Of a DNA stretch of 20,521 bases, positions 7,707 through 20,521 are shown one piece after another. The position numbers and the translations under genes are program-made. The notes beneath the pieces are model-generated. The model saw nothing but the letters and a program-made list of their open reading frames with translations, did no database searches and was not told the DNA's origin. Each line of letters starts with the position of its first letter. Within the stretch, counting starts at the first letter, position 1. The DNA is from a virus. Where the stretch lies: positions 1 to 20,521 of the IMG/VR virus record IMGVR_UViG_3300036985_001082; one strand, given 5' to 3'.

Positions 7707-8072
7707 TTAATTTTTATTATTTACTCTTTTATATATCAACACGCCTGGGTAGTCACTTGTAACATCCAAAGCCATAGTATCTTTATTTATAATAGTAAAT
7801 TTTGACGTTGATTCAAATTTTAGTTGTTCAAATACAGTCTTTAAATAAAACGTATTACCTACTATCTTGTGCTCTAAAACAGTTAAAGGATCACCTGTAT
7901 AAGATGAAACTTCTATTATTGTTAATTCATTACTGTCTGAAACATTAAACCATATTTCAGTACCTTCCCCGTTAGATGTCCATTGTCCCTCTAAAAAATC
8001 ATTACTCATTTTTTGAGCATTAGCAAAAGAGAACATAAAAAAAACCCCCGATAATAAAAATAATTTTTTCAT
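7707..8072 (-). CDS. Secreted/periplasmic small beta-rich protein
   Basis: A 121-residue protein with a clear signal peptide: MKK, a hydrophobic core LFLLSGVFFMFSF, and cleavage after about ANAQ (residue 20), the typical ending in Flavobacteriia. The mature 100 residues are alternating beta strands (for example EGQWTSNGEGTEIWFNVSD and TVFEQLKFESTSKFTII), resembling small lipocalin-like or DUF-type periplasmic domains. There is no lipobox, catalytic residue or cysteine pair. Host-type small secreted proteins with this layout are common in flavobacteria, so the gene may have been captured from a host. In the phage it could act at the cell envelope during lysis or exclude superinfection; both are guesses. 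About 40 bases of very AT-rich DNA precede its start, more than for most neighbours. Confidence 0.7.
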   Translation of the reverse strand: MKKLFLLSGVFFMFSFANAQKMSNDFLEGQWTSNGEGTEIWFNVSDSNELTIIEVSSYTGDPLTVLEHKIVGNTFYLKTVFEQLKFESTSKFTIINKDTMALDVTSDYPGVLIYKRVNNKN

Positions 8073-8114
8073 AATATATTTGATTAAAGTTATATATTAT
8101 TATTATTACATATA

Positions 8115-8453
8115 TTATCTCTTTTTTAACTTACTAGAGTTTTGTTTTTTATATGCTTCTTTTTCCCAGGGTAAATTCTTAGCCCCCTCGTCCATAGCAG
8201 CTCTTGAATATTTCTTACCTTTCCAGGTTACGTGTGTGTCATCATAACCTAAGTCACCACGTTTCATTTGATCAATATGAACCATTTCGTGTTCTATTGT
8301 TTTATTTTTTCTTAACTCTAATGGTGACGCATTCTGATTAATAAGTATTGTGCCATTTGATTGTGCCATACCGAGAACGTCATCTTCCATATCTGTACTG
8401 TAGATTGGAGTATTATTCAAAGCGTACGGAGGGCCTTTCATTTTAAATGCCAT
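8115..8453 (-). CDS. Mini zinc metallopeptidase-like protein (HEMVH)
   Basis: A 112-residue protein with a zincin signature: TIEHEMVHIDQMKRGDLGYD, with HExxH at H55-E56-M57-V58-H59. A possible third zinc ligand is a Glu in the downstream PWEKEAY helix (about 96-102). The N-terminal half has short strands, including GTILINQN (about 34-41), ahead of the zinc helix, as in minimal gluzincins. No signal peptide or membrane segment is present. The size is close to the smallest stand-alone zincin domains. It starts within the last 11 bases of the 76-aa gene. Likely an intracellular or virion-borne peptidase, perhaps for head maturation or cell-wall entry. Activity is inferred from the motif only; the third ligand is a candidate. 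Confidence 0.65.
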   Translation of the reverse strand: MAFKMKGPPYALNNTPIYSTDMEDDVLGMAQSNGTILINQNASPLELRKNKTIEHEMVHIDQMKRGDLGYDDTHVTWKGKKYSRAAMDEGAKNLPWEKEAYKKQNSSKLKKR

Positions 8454-10902: not shown

Positions 10903-11159
10903 AATTTAACAACAATATCATCTATCTTTATCAACCTGTAGTTATTATCTACACCTTCTAACATATGCCCGGCAACCATATCATATAATATCTGCGTACC
11001 TGGCTCTAGGCCTAATATAGGCATCCCTATTGAGATAATTTCTGCTTCTCTATATCTTATATCTTCTCTGGTTTTATTGTCCATTAGAAGTCCTTTTTCG
11101 CTTTTGCTTAAAATATCTTTTTTAGGCAAAACTATTACGTATTTACCTATTGCTTCCAT
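10899..11159 (-). CDS. groES: Phage co-chaperonin (GroES-like)
   Basis: An 86-residue protein (ATG at 11159; a TTG three bases earlier would add one residue). It has the GroES fold order: a starting strand AIGKYVIVLPKK, a mobile-loop region ILSKSEKGLLMDNKTRED (about 17-34), then AEIISIGMPI and PGTQILYDMVAGHMLE, ending DNNYRLIKIDDIVVKL. In host GroES the mobile loop carries an IVL triad; here LLM sits at that place. It is ten or so residues shorter than the usual ~97. It overlaps groEL by 17 bases and the winged-helix gene by 4 bases (ATGA). It would cap the phage GroEL ring, or host GroEL, as T4 gp31 does. Identity is well supported by its position after groEL. Confidence 0.8.
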   Translation of the reverse strand: MEAIGKYVIVLPKKDILSKSEKGLLMDNKTREDIRYREAEIISIGMPILGLEPGTQILYDMVAGHMLEGVDNNYRLIKIDDIVVKL

Positions 11160-12705
11160 CAACTCTTAAATTATTGATTACACAATCGGTTGACAATATA
11201 GTTATAGCCACTGACACCGCATTTCTTAATGCGCTTTTTGTAACTAATAGTGGATCTATAATGCCAGCATCCACCATATTAACTAATTCTCCTGTAACTA
11301 CGTTTATACCAAATCCTTCGTCGTATATATTATCGTTATGATCTATACCTGCGTTAGATAGTATTGTATTGTGAGGTGCACGTATTGCTTTTAATAAAAC
11401 ATTTTCAGCTAATCCTAAACCTTTAGCAGCGTAATGATCAGCTGCGTTCTTTAAGGCTATTCCACCTCCAGCAACTATACCATCTTTAATGGCTGCTTTG
11501 GTAGCACATATAGCATCCTCAACTCTGTCAGCTTTTTCTCTAAGCTCTATATCTGAATTAGCACCTACTTTTACTACAGCAATTTTAGCGGATAACCTAG
11601 CCAACCTTTTTTCTAGTCGTATTACTTCATTAGGTTTTTTGGCTCTTGATATATCCTGTTTTATATTTAGGATAATATTATCCACCTCTTCTGTTTGTTT
11701 TTCAATCTTTAATATTGTTTCTTGATCGTATGTTATGCTTTTTATACAATTGCCCAAATGTTCAGGTTGTATTAAATCCATATCATCGCCAAGATCCTCG
11801 TTTATAACTGTAGCCCCTGTTAACAAAGCTAAGTCGTATATTGTATCTTTTTTATTAACACCGTATGTTGGCGCATTTATAACGTTAACCTTTAGATTAC
11901 CTTTAACCTTATTCATGGCTATTGCAGCTATAACCGGCTGATCTAAATCTGCAATAATTAATAACGATCTTTTCTGTTCTATCGCATACTCTAATACAGA
12001 TCTTATCTGTCTTATATTAGTTATTGGCGATTCAATTATTAGAACTAATGGATTATCTAATTCAGCAGCTTTAATCTCTGGGCTAGTAATAAAATGTGCA
12101 TTAACTAATCCTTTGTCATACTGAACACCTTCTACTATTTCTACCTCAGTGTCTGATAACACAGAGTGTTCTAACATTACAACTCCCGTATTGCCAACAG
12201 CTCTAAAAGCATCACCTATTATCTTACCTAAGTATGGATCATTGTTAGCAGATATTGTTGCAATCTGATCTAGCATATCGCCCTCTGCTAATATAGCTTT
12301 GTTTCCAATGTAATCTATCACTAACTCTAACGCGTTCTCAATACCGGCTTTTAGTTCCCTAAGATTTACGGTATCATTAACTTTATGAGCTTCATCTAAA
12401 ATAGCATGTGCCAATATTGTAGCGGTGGTTGTTCCGTCACCGGCTTCTTTAACAGTCTTACGTGCAGCCTCTTTTAAAAGCCTAGCCCCCATATTTTCTA
12501 TGGGATCTAATAGTATAATACTATCTGCCACTGTCACACCATCTTTTGTAATAACTGGATTACCAGAACCATCTTCAAGCATTACGCATTTACCACTGGC
12601 TCCTAATGTAGAACTAACGGCTTTAGTCAGTTTTGTTATTCCTTCGAATACTTTATTCCTAGCTTCATTTCCAAAGCTAAGATTCTTTACAATTGCATCT
12701 GTCAT
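11143..12705 (-). CDS. groEL: Phage chaperonin GroEL
   Basis: A 520-residue group I chaperonin, compared with about 545-550 for host GroEL. ATP-site elements are present: LGASG in place of the usual LGPKG (about 34-38), ITKDG (about 52-56), GDGTTTAT (about 89-96), RVEDA with the catalytic-type Asp (about 393-397), AGGG (about 411-414) and DAGIIDP (about 478-484). The apical domain is divergent: the GFGDRR block is replaced by TYGVNKK, and the helix around NIRQIRSVLEYA carries Arg where E. coli GroEL has Leu234. Of the usual substrate/GroES contacts, Tyr199 and Tyr203 appear as Leu and His. The Gly-Met tail is missing; it ends RVDGSNR. It probably folds phage proteins with the adjacent co-chaperonin. 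A 61-base AT-rich gap precedes it. Confidence 0.95.
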   Translation of the reverse strand: MTDAIVKNLSFGNEARNKVFEGITKLTKAVSSTLGASGKCVMLEDGSGNPVITKDGVTVADSIILLDPIENMGARLLKEAARKTVKEAGDGTTTATILAHAILDEAHKVNDTVNLRELKAGIENALELVIDYIGNKAILAEGDMLDQIATISANNDPYLGKIIGDAFRAVGNTGVVMLEHSVLSDTEVEIVEGVQYDKGLVNAHFITSPEIKAAELDNPLVLIIESPITNIRQIRSVLEYAIEQKRSLLIIADLDQPVIAAIAMNKVKGNLKVNVINAPTYGVNKKDTIYDLALLTGATVINEDLGDDMDLIQPEHLGNCIKSITYDQETILKIEKQTEEVDNIILNIKQDISRAKKPNEVIRLEKRLARLSAKIAVVKVGANSDIELREKADRVEDAICATKAAIKDGIVAGGGIALKNAADHYAAKGLGLAENVLLKAIRAPHNTILSNAGIDHNDNIYDEGFGINVVTGELVNMVDAGIIDPLLVTKSALRNAVSVAITILSTDCVINNLRVDGSNR

Positions 12706-12741
12706 GTTGTATTTAATTTGATTTAATTTTATAACAGTATT

Positions 12742-12751
12742 ATTACGTAAT
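12742..12751 (-). promoter_or_regulatory. Palindrome in AT-rich gap before groEL; possible promoter region
   Basis: The 61-base gap between the lipoprotein gene and groEL holds a perfect ATTACGTAAT palindrome, followed on the minus strand by GTTATAAAAT, a -10-like run about 30 bases before the groEL ATG. No good -35 or Bacteroidota-type -33/-7 pair is visible. This is the widest gap in the middle of the late block, so a separate control point for the chaperonins is possible. Confidence 0.25.
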
Positions 12752-12766
12752 TTTTAGGGTTTTTAG

Positions 12767-17972: not shown

Positions 17973-18797
17973 TTATACTAATCTTATTTTTACGGTACCA
18001 GCAGTGTGATATAACCCACCAACAGCAATACCACCAATAGCCGCCGCTGCATCATCCGCAAAATTATCTGCTACCTGCGGAAGATCATTGGTCATGGCAT
18101 ATGTACCTGATTTATTTGGCTCCTGTCTGTTCTTTGTACCTGTTACCGAACTCCAACTTACATTAAGAAGACCGCCACCTAATGTGAATCTGTCCTCACC
18201 TCCATCATATATTTCTCTAATTAAATTACCTGTGTCACCTTTAAAAAAGGTTGCGTTACCAAAAGCATAGATGGTGGAATAATTGCCGGTGCTTGTATCA
18301 CCTAACCGTAACTCACCTACCTCTACAGAGTTTGTTGTAACACTACCTTCATCTGTTACTATTTGCAAATCAGGGGTTACTAAGTCATTTGTTAAAGCAA
18401 TTGTACCGTCTTTGTTCGGTAGGGTAAAAAACCTGGACACGGTTAAATTATCACCAAGTAGATTCATATTGCCTACGGTTAAAAGGGGTCCTTCCGCATA
18501 AAGCACGTCAGAACCATTTGAACCAATAAGTCTAAAGATACTGTCGTTTAAACGTATCTTACCATAATCAGCATTAGCATCGTCATAAAGATATAACTCA
18601 CCTATCTTAGCATCTAACAATGATTCATTGTCATTATCTAAAACATCATTAAGTGTTACAAAACCACGTGTAAAAGAAACAATATCACCCACACTGTAGT
18701 TCTTAACCACACGTAAGCCATTATCCATTTCACTACCTAAAACCCAACTGTCATTTGTTACTTCATCCGCCAACGGATAACTGTATATTATTGCCAT
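17973..18797 (-). CDS. Short tail-fibre paralogue
   Basis: A 274-residue protein. Residues 1-90 parallel the N-terminus of the 789-aa fibre (MAIIYSYPL..., then TLNDVLDNDNESLLDAKIGE, then LYLYDDANADYGKIRL), so the two are tandem paralogues. P-N-K-x-G-T units occur at about 125 (LPNKDGTIALTNDL) and about 229 (EPNKSGTYAMTNDL). The last 30 residues, ADDAAAAIGGIAVGGLYHTA and a short strand, are a C-terminal cap common in tail proteins of marine phages. It lacks the long receptor-like region of its partner. It may be a shorter fibre, a baseplate attachment part, or a stump of the same family. Its start overlaps the preceding stop as TAATG. Confidence 0.75.
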   Translation of the reverse strand: MAIIYSYPLADEVTNDSWVLGSEMDNGLRVVKNYSVGDIVSFTRGFVTLNDVLDNDNESLLDAKIGELYLYDDANADYGKIRLNDSIFRLIGSNGSDVLYAEGPLLTVGNMNLLGDNLTVSRFFTLPNKDGTIALTNDLVTPDLQIVTDEGSVTTNSVEVGELRLGDTSTGNYSTIYAFGNATFFKGDTGNLIREIYDGGEDRFTLGGGLLNVSWSSVTGTKNRQEPNKSGTYAMTNDLPQVADNFADDAAAAIGGIAVGGLYHTAGTVKIRLV

Positions 18798-19051
18798 TAT
18801 TTCCTACCTTTAGTTATTTTATATTTTTTACCACTCTCTTTCTTAGTGCCCTCGCCTTCATTGCCGCGATTCTGTTTCACACTTTCAAATCTTCTGTCTT
18901 CGTGATCATAATCTTTACCTTTGTTGCCCGGGCTTTTACGATGCATCCTTTGTGATTCCGCCTTCTTCATTCTCCGGTCATCGGTTTTTGCATATCTTAA
19001 GTCTCTTTCCGCTTTTGCCTTAGCCGCCTTTGGAGATAATTTCTGTGCCAT
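18797..19051 (-). CDS. Small basic phage protein, first gene of the late block
   Basis: An 84-residue Lys/Arg-rich protein starting MAQKLSPKAAKAKAERDLRY. The frame is open upstream to an ATG at 19096, but the 15 extra residues (MYLYVIVYTITK...) include a palindrome in the DNA and are unlike the rest, so I take the downstream start. It is highly charged with a predicted helix at the start (A-K-A-K-A-E-R-D) and a disordered basic remainder; it has no membrane segment. Such proteins occur in marine Bacteroidota phages near tail genes; function unknown, possibly nucleic-acid binding. Stop and next start overlap as TAATG. Confidence 0.65.
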   Translation of the reverse strand: MAQKLSPKAAKAKAERDLRYAKTDDRRMKKAESQRMHRKSPGNKGKDYDHEDRRFESVKQNRGNEGEGTKKESGKKYKITKGRK

Positions 19052-19067
19052 ATTACTAAATTTAGTT

Positions 19068-19081
19068 ATAGTATATACTAT
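19068..19081. promoter_or_regulatory. 14-bp perfect palindrome before the late operon
   Basis: ATAGTATATACTAT is its own reverse complement and lies 16 bases upstream of the preferred start of the first late gene (19051). The position is right for an operator or promoter-associated site. It is AT-only except for one G/C pair, so chance cannot be excluded. Confidence 0.3.
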
Positions 19082-19108
19082 CACGTATAAATACAAATTC
19101 TTAAAAGT

Positions 19109-19591: not shown

Positions 19592-19604
19592 ACGAAGCGG
19601 AGCA

Positions 19605-19639
19605 ACGCGGAGCGTAGCGTATAGCATTTGCGTATAGCA
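19605..19639. repeat. Composite repeat, copy A (upstream of promoter element 1)
   Basis: A 12-base ACGCGGAGCGTA (19605-19616) is followed by a 21-base unit (19619-19639) made of GTATAGCA, TTTGC and GTATAGCA. Both recur in the same order at 20120-20160, each time just ahead of a TTACAGT promoter-like element. Two GCGGAGC heptamers occur in copy A (about 19597 and 19607). Confidence 0.6.
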
Positions 19640-19640
19640 C

Positions 19641-19682
19641 TTACAGTCTGAGTACGACCTAGATCTGATAATATATATGAAT
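19641..19682 (+). promoter_or_regulatory. Promoter-like element, copy 1
   Basis: TTACAGT, N5, TACGA (offset 12), N8, then TGATAATATATATGAAT (offset 25). The same blocks with identical offsets occur at 20165 and 20371, each just before a tiny plus-strand gene. The GATAAT/TAATAT core is -10-like. TTACAG could be a -35 box 20 bases before GATAAT, which is long for sigma-70; a phage-specific recognition is possible. No Bacteroidota -33 TTTG/-7 TAnnTTTG pair fits. Confidence 0.65.
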
Positions 19683-19703
19683 CTAAAAATAAATATACTA
19701 TGA
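19677..19703 (+). other. Micro-leader ORF 1 (8 codons)
   Basis: The ATG inside TATATATGAAT opens a short frame, MNLKINIL, whose TGA overlaps the next ATG (CTATGA, start at 19700). It could be a coupling leader. Alternatively ATGAAT is just the conserved initially transcribed part of the promoter. Confidence 0.35.
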
Positions 19704-19867
19704 CTTTCACATTATCAAACTTCAAATTTCAAATTTATTATTCAAAAGAATTTAAACTATATGATTTATTAATTACTTATAATAATAAATTTCACTCTCA
19801 TTATCATTTATCAAATAAAAAACAAATCAACAAAATAATTAATAAAACTTTAAAACAACTTAAATAA
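19700..19867 (+). CDS. Tiny AT-rich early gene, 55 aa
   Basis: A 55-residue protein, ATG at 19700 and TAA at 19865-19867. It is rich in Lys, Asn, Phe and Tyr (MTFTLSNFKFQIYYSKEFKL, then an LLITYNNKFHSHYHLSNKKQ middle and a NKIINKTLKQLK end), with no membrane segment or known motif. It begins in an ATGA overlap with the micro-leader and lies 18 bases after promoter-like element 1. The next gene starts 7 bases after its stop, so the two are probably co-transcribed. Very small AT-rich proteins of this sort in a phage early region often act on host functions; this is inference. Confidence 0.6.
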   Translation: MTFTLSNFKFQIYYSKEFKLYDLLITYNNKFHSHYHLSNKKQINKIINKTLKQLK

Positions 19868-19874
19868 ATTAACT

Positions 19875-20057
19875 ATGAATAATCTAATCAACAACCTAGA
19901 ATTAAGAATTAAAGTAGCTTTTAAAAATCAGGCCATATTAGAATCAATGGGTTCAGACTATGACGAAGACTATATCTGCAATATAAAATCAGACTTTATA
20001 ATAAGATATAAAAATAAATTAACTAATGATCAGATAGATTATATAGCTAAGATCTAG
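19875..20057 (+). CDS. Tiny early gene, 60 aa
   Basis: A 60-residue, mostly helical, mixed-charge protein: MNNLINNLELRIKVAFKNQA, then an acidic GSDYDEDYIC segment (about 26-35), then a basic helix and an NDQIDYIAKI ending. No membrane segment, signal or recognised domain. It is second in a two-gene unit after the 55-aa gene and is followed at once by a hairpin terminator, so the pair is a complete transcription unit. Function unknown. Confidence 0.65.
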   Translation: MNNLINNLELRIKVAFKNQAILESMGSDYDEDYICNIKSDFIIRYKNKLTNDQIDYIAKI

Positions 20058-20078
20058 CCCTAGCAATAGGGTTTTATT
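20056..20078 (+). terminator. Intrinsic terminator after the 60-aa gene
   Basis: CCCTA (20058-20062), loop GCAA, TAGGG (20067-20071), then TTTTATT. The flanking AG/TT can extend the stem to about 7 bp with one G-U. A compact GNRA-type loop, a GC-rich stem and a T-tract directly after the stop codon make this a convincing plus-strand terminator. Confidence 0.8.
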
Positions 20079-20119
20079 ACTCTGCTGCGGCGGAATTGGC
20101 AGGCGGAGCCGTGCTCAAT

Positions 20120-20160
20120 ACGCGGAGCGTATAGCAAATGTATAGCATTTGCGTATAGCA
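20120..20160. repeat. Composite repeat, copy B (upstream of promoter element 2)
   Basis: The 12-base ACGCGGAGCGTA (20120-20131) and the 21-base GTATAGCA-TTTGC-GTATAGCA unit (20140-20160) repeat copy A exactly. Extra bases between them create an inverted repeat GCAAATG/CATTTGC around TATAG (about 20134-20152). Another GCGGAGC is at about 20102. Copy 3 of the promoter element lacks this upstream block. Confidence 0.6.
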
Positions 20161-20164
20161 TTTC

Positions 20165-20206
20165 TTACAGTCTGAATACGAGGTTAAAATGATAATATAT
20201 ATGAAT
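20165..20206 (+). promoter_or_regulatory. Promoter-like element, copy 2
   Basis: Same blocks and offsets as copy 1 (TTACAGT at 0, TACGA at 12, TGATAATATATATGAAT at 25). The similarity to copy 3 continues past the element for about 13 bases (AAAGAAATTAATA). It lies after the hairpin terminator and before the 40-aa gene, so it would start a new transcript. Confidence 0.65.
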
Positions 20207-20239
20207 AAAGAAATTAATATAAATAATAAAATTAAATAA
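20201..20239 (+). other. Micro-leader ORF 2 (12 codons)
   Basis: The ATG in the element opens MNKEININNKIK, stop at 20237-20239, two bases before the start of the 40-aa gene. First seven codons are the same as in copy 3. Same caution as for copy 1. Confidence 0.35.
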
Positions 20240-20241
20240 TT

Positions 20242-20364
20242 ATGAATTTAGAATTAAAAGAAATTTGGTTAATAAAAGAATTAATTTATAAAAGAATAGA
20301 TGAAGTTGAAGGTTATGAAAATTTAGAAGATGAATTAAAAGAATTATTAAATAAATTAAAATAA
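20242..20364 (+). CDS. Tiny early gene, 40 aa
   Basis: A 40-residue, Leu/Glu/Lys-rich protein (MNLELKEIWLIKELIYKRID, then EVEGYENLEDELKELLNKLK) expected to form two amphipathic helices, possibly a helical hairpin. The stop is at 20362-20364 and the third promoter-like element starts 6 bases later. No recognised family. The match of leader, start and length with its neighbours supports coding, although nothing but order and composition shows this. Confidence 0.5.
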   Translation: MNLELKEIWLIKELIYKRIDEVEGYENLEDELKELLNKLK

Positions 20365-20370
20365 AAGTCT

Positions 20371-20412
20371 TTACAGTAATAATACGACTAGAAGATGATA
20401 ATATATATGAAT
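20371..20412 (+). promoter_or_regulatory. Promoter-like element, copy 3
   Basis: TTACAGT at 0, TACGA at 12 and TGATAATATATATGAAT at 25, spacing identical to copies 1 and 2. N5 differs (AATAA rather than CTGAG/CTGAA). It lacks the upstream composite repeat. It precedes a further tiny gene cut by the window edge. Confidence 0.6.
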
Positions 20413-20436
20413 AAAGAAATTAATATAAACAAATAA
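20407..20436 (+). other. Micro-leader ORF 3 (9 codons)
   Basis: The ATG of the element opens MNKEININK, stop at 20434-20436, 10 bases before the next ATG. The start is the same as copy 2 for seven codons. Confidence 0.3.
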
Positions 20437-20446
20437 AATAAATAAA

Positions 20447-20521
20447 ATGACTTTAAAAATTAATCAAAATTTCAAATCAATTATTAATAATCAATTAATA
20501 AATTCTCACAAATTAAGTTAT
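20447..20521 (+). CDS. Tiny early gene, start only (cut by right edge)
   Basis: ATG at 20447, open for 25 codons to the edge: MTLKINQNFKSIINNQLINS and a short basic stretch. Composition (Asn, Lys, Ile-rich) matches the 55-aa gene, and its MT-x-x start plus promoter-like element is parallel. Coding is inferred from the repeated cassette layout. Confidence 0.45.
   Translation, partial: MTLKINQNFKSIINNQLINSHKLSY

Follow-up and report, generated by a model that had tools for sequence, protein, structure and literature searches.

A repeated promoter-like element in aquatic Bacteroidota phages, a probable early promoter class with a phage sigma factor as candidate reader

Annotation of the early region at the right-hand end of the window

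The window analyzed here, an IMG/VR record taken at its whole length of 20,521 bp, is a phage fragment, the right end of which lies just inside the early region. The portal protein, the terminase large subunit, GroEL, a GroES-like protein and an endolysin-type gene are encoded on the minus strand, and tiny genes are located on the plus strand at the right-hand end. The pattern TTACAGT-N5-TACGA-N8-TGATAATATATATGAAT was found on the plus strand at 19641-19682, 20165-20206 and 20371-20412, in all cases as an exact match, which agrees with the three copies with fixed offsets of 0, 12 and 25 nt given in the preliminary description. No further copy was detected in the window, even with three mismatches allowed, and just three are visible because the fragment stops so soon after entering the early region. 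Three pattern matches were obtained in none of 100 dinucleotide shuffles of the window.

In the first copy, TTACAGT is located at 19641-19647, followed by AGTACGA (19651-19657) and the −10 box GATAAT (19667-19672), with a predicted transcription start at about 19679. The second and third copies are likewise exact matches and agree with the 215-site profile described below, with GATAAT at 20191-20196 and 20397-20402 and predicted starts at about 20203 and 20409, respectively. All three starts were predicted from the lower bound of start codons at motif position 39.

Open reading frames follow all three copies, as had been described. Behind the first copy there are two of them, encoding 55 aa (19700-19867, plus strand; homologues, best 66% identity over 53 aa, E 1e-17) and 60 aa (19875-20057, plus strand; homologue in L153/L028, E 9e-11). 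This first unit ends with a predicted intrinsic terminator at 20056-20073 on the plus strand, consisting of a 7-bp stem and a T-rich tail; the terminator pattern occurred twice in the scanned region with 0.6 expected, and the hairpin was also obtained by folding. The second unit contains a gene of 40 aa (20242-20364, plus strand; homologues, best 63% over 41 aa, E 7e-8). The gene of the third unit starts with an ATG 76 nt past the start of the third copy and runs from 20447 to 20521 on the plus strand without a stop codon before the contig end. As related contigs contain homologues of the first three ORFs (tblastn, best E 1e-17 to 7e-8), the tiny genes are regarded as real.

Repeats of GTATAGC/GCTATAC and GCGGAGC were observed at 19600-19640 and 20120-20160 of the window as well as upstream of many sites in the relatives, where TATAGC is contained in 61 of 210 stretches upstream of promoter copies.

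According to the terminase, the nearest named relative is MW202828 (Podoviridae sp. ctfjg026, 65% identity), followed by the Flavobacterium phage elemo (Elemovirus, 45%), both of which have a gene layout with groEL and groES similar to that of the window. Cellulophaga and Tenacibaculum phages that belong to the Pachyviridae and Pervagoviridae share 30-38% terminase identity with it. The known hosts of the named relatives are Flavobacteriaceae. The motif-bearing phages are a large, common and almost uncultured group of aquatic Bacteroidota phages. A literature search for promoters or sigma factors in this group found nothing, and both are unmentioned in a study of the related families (PMC8776804). 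Likewise, no earlier description of the transcription programme of the group was found in this search, and a precise promoter with predicted starts is now proposed for it.

Occurrence of the motif in related phages

A strict scan of viral contigs for the pattern resulted in 30 stretches. When whole records were searched with three mismatches allowed, 3-14 sites were found in each of the 27 related contigs selected by the motif (27/27), always on a single strand per genome, and a reversed control pattern had no match in these 27 records. The refined profile was built from 215 sites and has the consensus YTTACARtCtnAAYACGAnnnnnAAtTGATAATATAWATGtAAc with an information content of about 49 bits. 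It had no match on the opposite strand, reversed or column-shuffled profiles had none at all, and the scores of sites and background are far apart.

As the 27 records had been chosen by the motif, the test was repeated with the phage sigma gene as the criterion for selecting loci. For this, the best 80 of 315 stretches were used, which had been found in viral contigs by a profile search for relatives of the sigma protein described below. The motif is present in 73 of the 80 loci; 404 of its sites share the strand of the sigma gene, and 2 are on the opposite one. In the seven loci that do not contain it, the early sequence upstream of the sigma gene is short or missing, most of them having about 3 kb or less there. 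The remaining one of the seven, L214, with the sigma gene, 10 kb of upstream sequence and no motif, was rejected as a true exception: compared with the relatives, the stretch adjoining the sigma gene has the opposite orientation, so that the early sequence is missing there. This inversion is probably an assembly error or a rearrangement.

The spacer between AAYACGn and nGATAATA has a length of 8 nt in 383 of 387 sites. Variants of the motif are fairly consistent within a genome, and each genome has its own type. For example, L236 has GATATTA throughout, L201 and L211 have upstream blocks like AAATAAGGTTGACACGA, and in G028 the sigma gene is present and the motif is strongly altered (ACGGACTTA), the middle block being absent.

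The motif is limited to the early region and located shortly upstream of start codons, the ATG mostly following 10-35 nt downstream. In the search of relatives that had been suggested for such an element, copies were returned in front of genes on the early strand, and the late strand had none. With the many further copies in related contigs the set does continue past the window edge, as had been supposed. Operons with the sigma gene and with primase/helicase are headed by the motif, too. The term micro-genes used in the preliminary description is therefore too narrow for the class as a whole.

Promoter architecture and predicted transcription start

The element is read as a promoter class because of its strand bias, its set distance to start codons and its −10 box. 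Judged from sequence comparison, it is very probably a dedicated, phage-specific class, and the idea of a dedicated early-gene class gains from the strand bias, the link to early genes and the many copies in relatives.

GATAAT is nearly invariant in the 215-site profile and matches TATAAT in five of six positions. The first ATGs of ORFs of at least 80 aa are most frequent in two places, motif position 39 (26 genes) and positions 58-61. Few are located between positions 26 and 38, where nine at position 37 coincide with the ATG of the motif itself. About 25 first ATGs lie earlier and overlap the motif; these may be wrong starts or belong to genes transcribed from further up. Because genes starting at position 39 would miss a transcript begun at position 46, GATAAT (positions 27-32) was assigned as the −10 box, with transcription probably starting near position 39. 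The −7 register of Bacteroidota promoters, with a start near position 46, was rejected since genes start at position 39. Given the predicted start, genes with their ATG at this position would be transcribed as leaderless mRNAs.

The −35-like block is CARtCt (positions 4-9), separated from GATAAT by 17 bp, with AAYACGA inside this spacer. The hexamer TTGACA is absent at a distance of 17 ± 1 bp. A −35 to −10 distance of 20 bp had been considered long for sigma-70, which is not supported in this form: with GATAAT as the −10 box the spacer has the normal 17 bp, and the positions of the start codons agree with this. The element thus resembles a sigma-70 promoter in the 5/6 match of its −10 box, the normal discriminator and the spacer to the −35-like block, and differs from it by CARtCt instead of TTGACA and by the additional conserved block in the spacer.

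The reported mismatch to the TTTG/TAnnTTTG promoter of Bacteroidota was confirmed, as both boxes are absent from the 215-site consensus. The sigma-A promoter of this phylum (PMC9723704) occupies the same place before genes, and the named relatives infect Flavobacteriaceae, whereas the motif lacks TAnnTTTG and instead has a GATAAT −10 box, TTACA and AAYACGA.

According to the proposed mechanism, the host core RNA polymerase would probably start about 7 nt past the sigma-70-like −10 box GATAAT. It would be assisted by two blocks in fixed positions further upstream, namely YTTACAR (about −39 to −33) and AAYACGA (about −28 to −22). At every copy, a short unit comprising between one and several genes would begin to be transcribed.

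A phage sigma factor as candidate reader

On the early strand of a related genome (G024), a sigma-family protein of 254 aa is encoded at 60498-61262; the window ends before such a gene. This protein was matched by Sigma70_r2 (PF04542) above and by sigma-70 region 4 below the Pfam cut-off, by NCBIfam TIGR02937 (sigma-70 superfamily) above the cut-off and by PHROG 351 ‘RNA polymerase sigma factor’ (1.7e-23), and it aligns with RpoD, SigA and FliA chains. In a structure model of only moderate confidence, the best structural matches were all from sigma-containing entries. The sigma is encoded by over 300 viral contigs, and its gene sits inside a motif-headed operon.

Neither the sigma gene nor the motif array was found in MW202828, elemo, phi46:3, phi40:1 and Gundel_1; the absence of the motif from these five sigma-less relatives may be one evolutionary event. 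In this respect MW202828 and elemo differ from the sigma-bearing phages, in spite of being the closest named relatives of the window. Upstream of their genes, the host-type promoter TTG-N17-21-TAnnTTTG occurs twice in each genome, compared to 0.1-0.2 expected from shuffles, whereas eight sigma-bearing genomes contain a single such site in all with about 1.2 expected, which is chance level; the numbers are small in both cases. In the early region of sigma-bearing phages, no host-type promoter was found. A candidate specificity factor is hereby combined with a contrast to sigma-less relatives that have host-type promoters.

The sigma did not co-diverge with the motif more closely than neighbouring genes do (partial r of 0.10-0.12, p = 0.04-0.07; −0.08 in a wider screen), which, overall distance being a blunt measure, lends no support to the sigma as reader. 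Its putative region 4 recognition helix (YVRISEIKKQA) is nearly constant where the upstream blocks differ strongly, e.g. between L201 and L205. Perhaps a second phage DNA-binding protein reads these blocks.

Phage sigma factors are known from SPO1 (gp28, gp33/34) and T4 (gp55), where they serve middle or late genes. What both systems share with the present one is a sigma-70-family protein encoded by the phage, along with a class of promoters that is specific to the phage and serves its genes. The difference is that the present motif precedes genes of the early strand, the sigma operon among them, and that the sigma is a candidate reader.

The contrast with the sigma-less relatives, the promoter classes of Flavobacterium psychrophilum and the late motif (see below for both) point to a phage-specific factor that reads the motif. 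For the phage sigma-70-family protein to be this reader, the sequence comparisons leave a chance that is close to even, and it is ranked slightly ahead of other factors. As it would be expressed from an operon with the same motif, the phage's own sigma, as the most likely specificity factor, would create a positive feedback. The best explanation overall is an early phage promoter class transcribed by the host core polymerase with the phage sigma as likely specificity factor, to which a probability of roughly 50% is assigned. Of the phage or modified host polymerase proposed in the preliminary description, the former has no counterpart in that no phage RNA polymerase was detected, while the phage sigma, as a candidate, fits the latter. 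Promoters of this kind might be used as phage-inducible promoters in a phylum where standard ones fail.

A candidate late promoter class and alternative readings

Late genes of the sigma-bearing phages are preceded by a second, weaker motif, GTRATA-N7-TATAWA, which lies for example some 44 nt ahead of groEL and for which the controls were less strict than for the early motif. In the window, candidate late elements are located on the minus strand at 12725-12752 (GTAATA-N7-TTATAA, upstream of groEL at 11143-12705), at 19063-19090 before the first late gene (18797-19051) and at 8088-8115 before a late gene. Most of the complete relatives have a similar element, which precedes their groEL by about 40-47 nt. 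This motif is likely to represent a late promoter class.

Such a class on the other strand would also suit a classic early-to-late cascade, in which the early class is read at once by the host holoenzyme, containing sigma-A or an alternative or ECF sigma, and the phage sigma switches transcription to GTRATA-N7-TATAWA. This reading has a substantial, if smaller, share of the probability. If the sigma is required for the early motif, the first transcripts need another source, i.e. something already in the cell, and the location of the sigma gene within a motif-headed operon, the presence of a distinct late-strand motif and the lack of co-divergence between early motif and sigma all fit a host reader. 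However, six promoter classes have been mapped in Flavobacterium psychrophilum (three TAnnTTTG variants, sigma-54, TAnnTTGY and an ECF CGT box), and the motif matches none of them (PMC9723704); the two sigma-less relatives MW202828 and elemo have host-type promoters instead. Flavobacterial chromosomes that have no phage sigma contain single copies before genes, one of them beside an ECF sigma gene, which speaks for the host again; these are so rare, the strict pattern yielding just 11 stretches in 257 Gb of bacterial genome sequence, that the element is not a general host promoter.

It is improbable that the element is chiefly an operator, i.e. a stoperator-like site of a phage repressor or activator with the core promoter elsewhere. 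About 49 bits are very high for a sigma-70 promoter, and TTACA (positions 1-5) and TGTAA (positions 38-42) form an imperfect inverted repeat, but TGTAA varies where TTACA is constant, so there is no covariation as expected of a dyad. Furthermore, the strict orientation (404 vs. 2 sites) and the set distance to starts with a −10-like box, start codons beginning exactly one discriminator length past it, disagree with an operator. A perfect palindrome, GTGTCGTTAACGACAC, occurs at 14 places, several of them intergenic, in the early region of the sigma-less MW202828 (43745-55154, L114/L115) and favours this reading by analogy; there it is possibly an operator.

Least probable is a phage-encoded RNA polymerase, either virion-borne or T7-like, as the reader: long, highly conserved promoters repeated before early genes are typical of phage polymerases such as those of N4 or crAss-like phages, and the phages carry a virion-region protein of 2,500-3,900 aa, whereas no phage polymerase was detected here, the architecture is sigma-like, and the giant protein had no RNA polymerase family in Pfam, PHROGs, NCBIfam and PDB searches. 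Encoded for example at L126:5272-14424 on the minus strand, it has no family match, no shared DxDxD column and no T7-type R-K-YG. Instead it contains conserved HEFLH (HExxH) and DFDDT motifs, and could be a protein that is ejected and has parts resembling proteases and HAD proteins. It was rejected as a polymerase for want of any polymerase signature, a statement that covers this protein.

Motif copies in bacterial chromosomes

For the 11 stretches found with the strict pattern in bacterial genomes, less than one was expected by chance, as roughly calculated from base composition. Two of them belong to phage contigs, namely L260, which also contains the sigma, and L270, which has eight sites. 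L261 was found behind a tRNA where its contig ends. Each of the remaining eight is a single exact copy on a flavobacterial or Bacteroidota-like MAG contig. These are L262, L263, L264, L265, L266, L267, L268 and L269 (contigs G048, G049, G050, G051, G052, G053, G054 and G055, respectively). Most are intergenic, and the next start codon follows at a distance of about 58-69 nt, an arrangement also seen in the phages; the situation of L264 and L269 is less clear. An origin as coincidences within coding sequences was rejected, since the frames comprise merely 15-42 aa in nearly all cases. No phage sigma was found in the genomes with single chromosomal copies.

The operons behind these copies encode a 460-aa lipoprotein-like protein, MORN/trypsin or TPR proteins, a 348-aa protein that has one region in common with an early phage family, and secreted proteins of 120-130 aa, which are arranged in tandem and have a homologue among the late proteins of the phages (E down to about 5e-43). 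In the window this protein family is represented by a late gene for a secreted protein of 121 aa (7707-8072, minus strand), and a search of 400 genomes from the taxonomic family to which G053 belongs did not detect it. The copy on G052 is close to AbiEi/AbiEii and a WYL protein, the contig G048 carries a large serine recombinase, and on G053 there is a divergent ECF sigma gene with its own degenerate motif copy.

As a phage promoter precedes phage-related operons, these islands, as host or satellite elements, might eavesdrop on the phages, infection switching them on via the phage sigma. This is considered rather unlikely; alternatively, the phages may have copied a host ECF-type promoter. All islands were found through the motif, and they offer a starting point for studying chromosomal islands with a possible response to infection.

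At L421:9872-10001, L239:5362 and L257:5859, on phage contigs and at a flavobacterial contig end, a motif copy immediately follows a tRNA-like 3′ end, which possibly marks an attachment site or an assembly junction.
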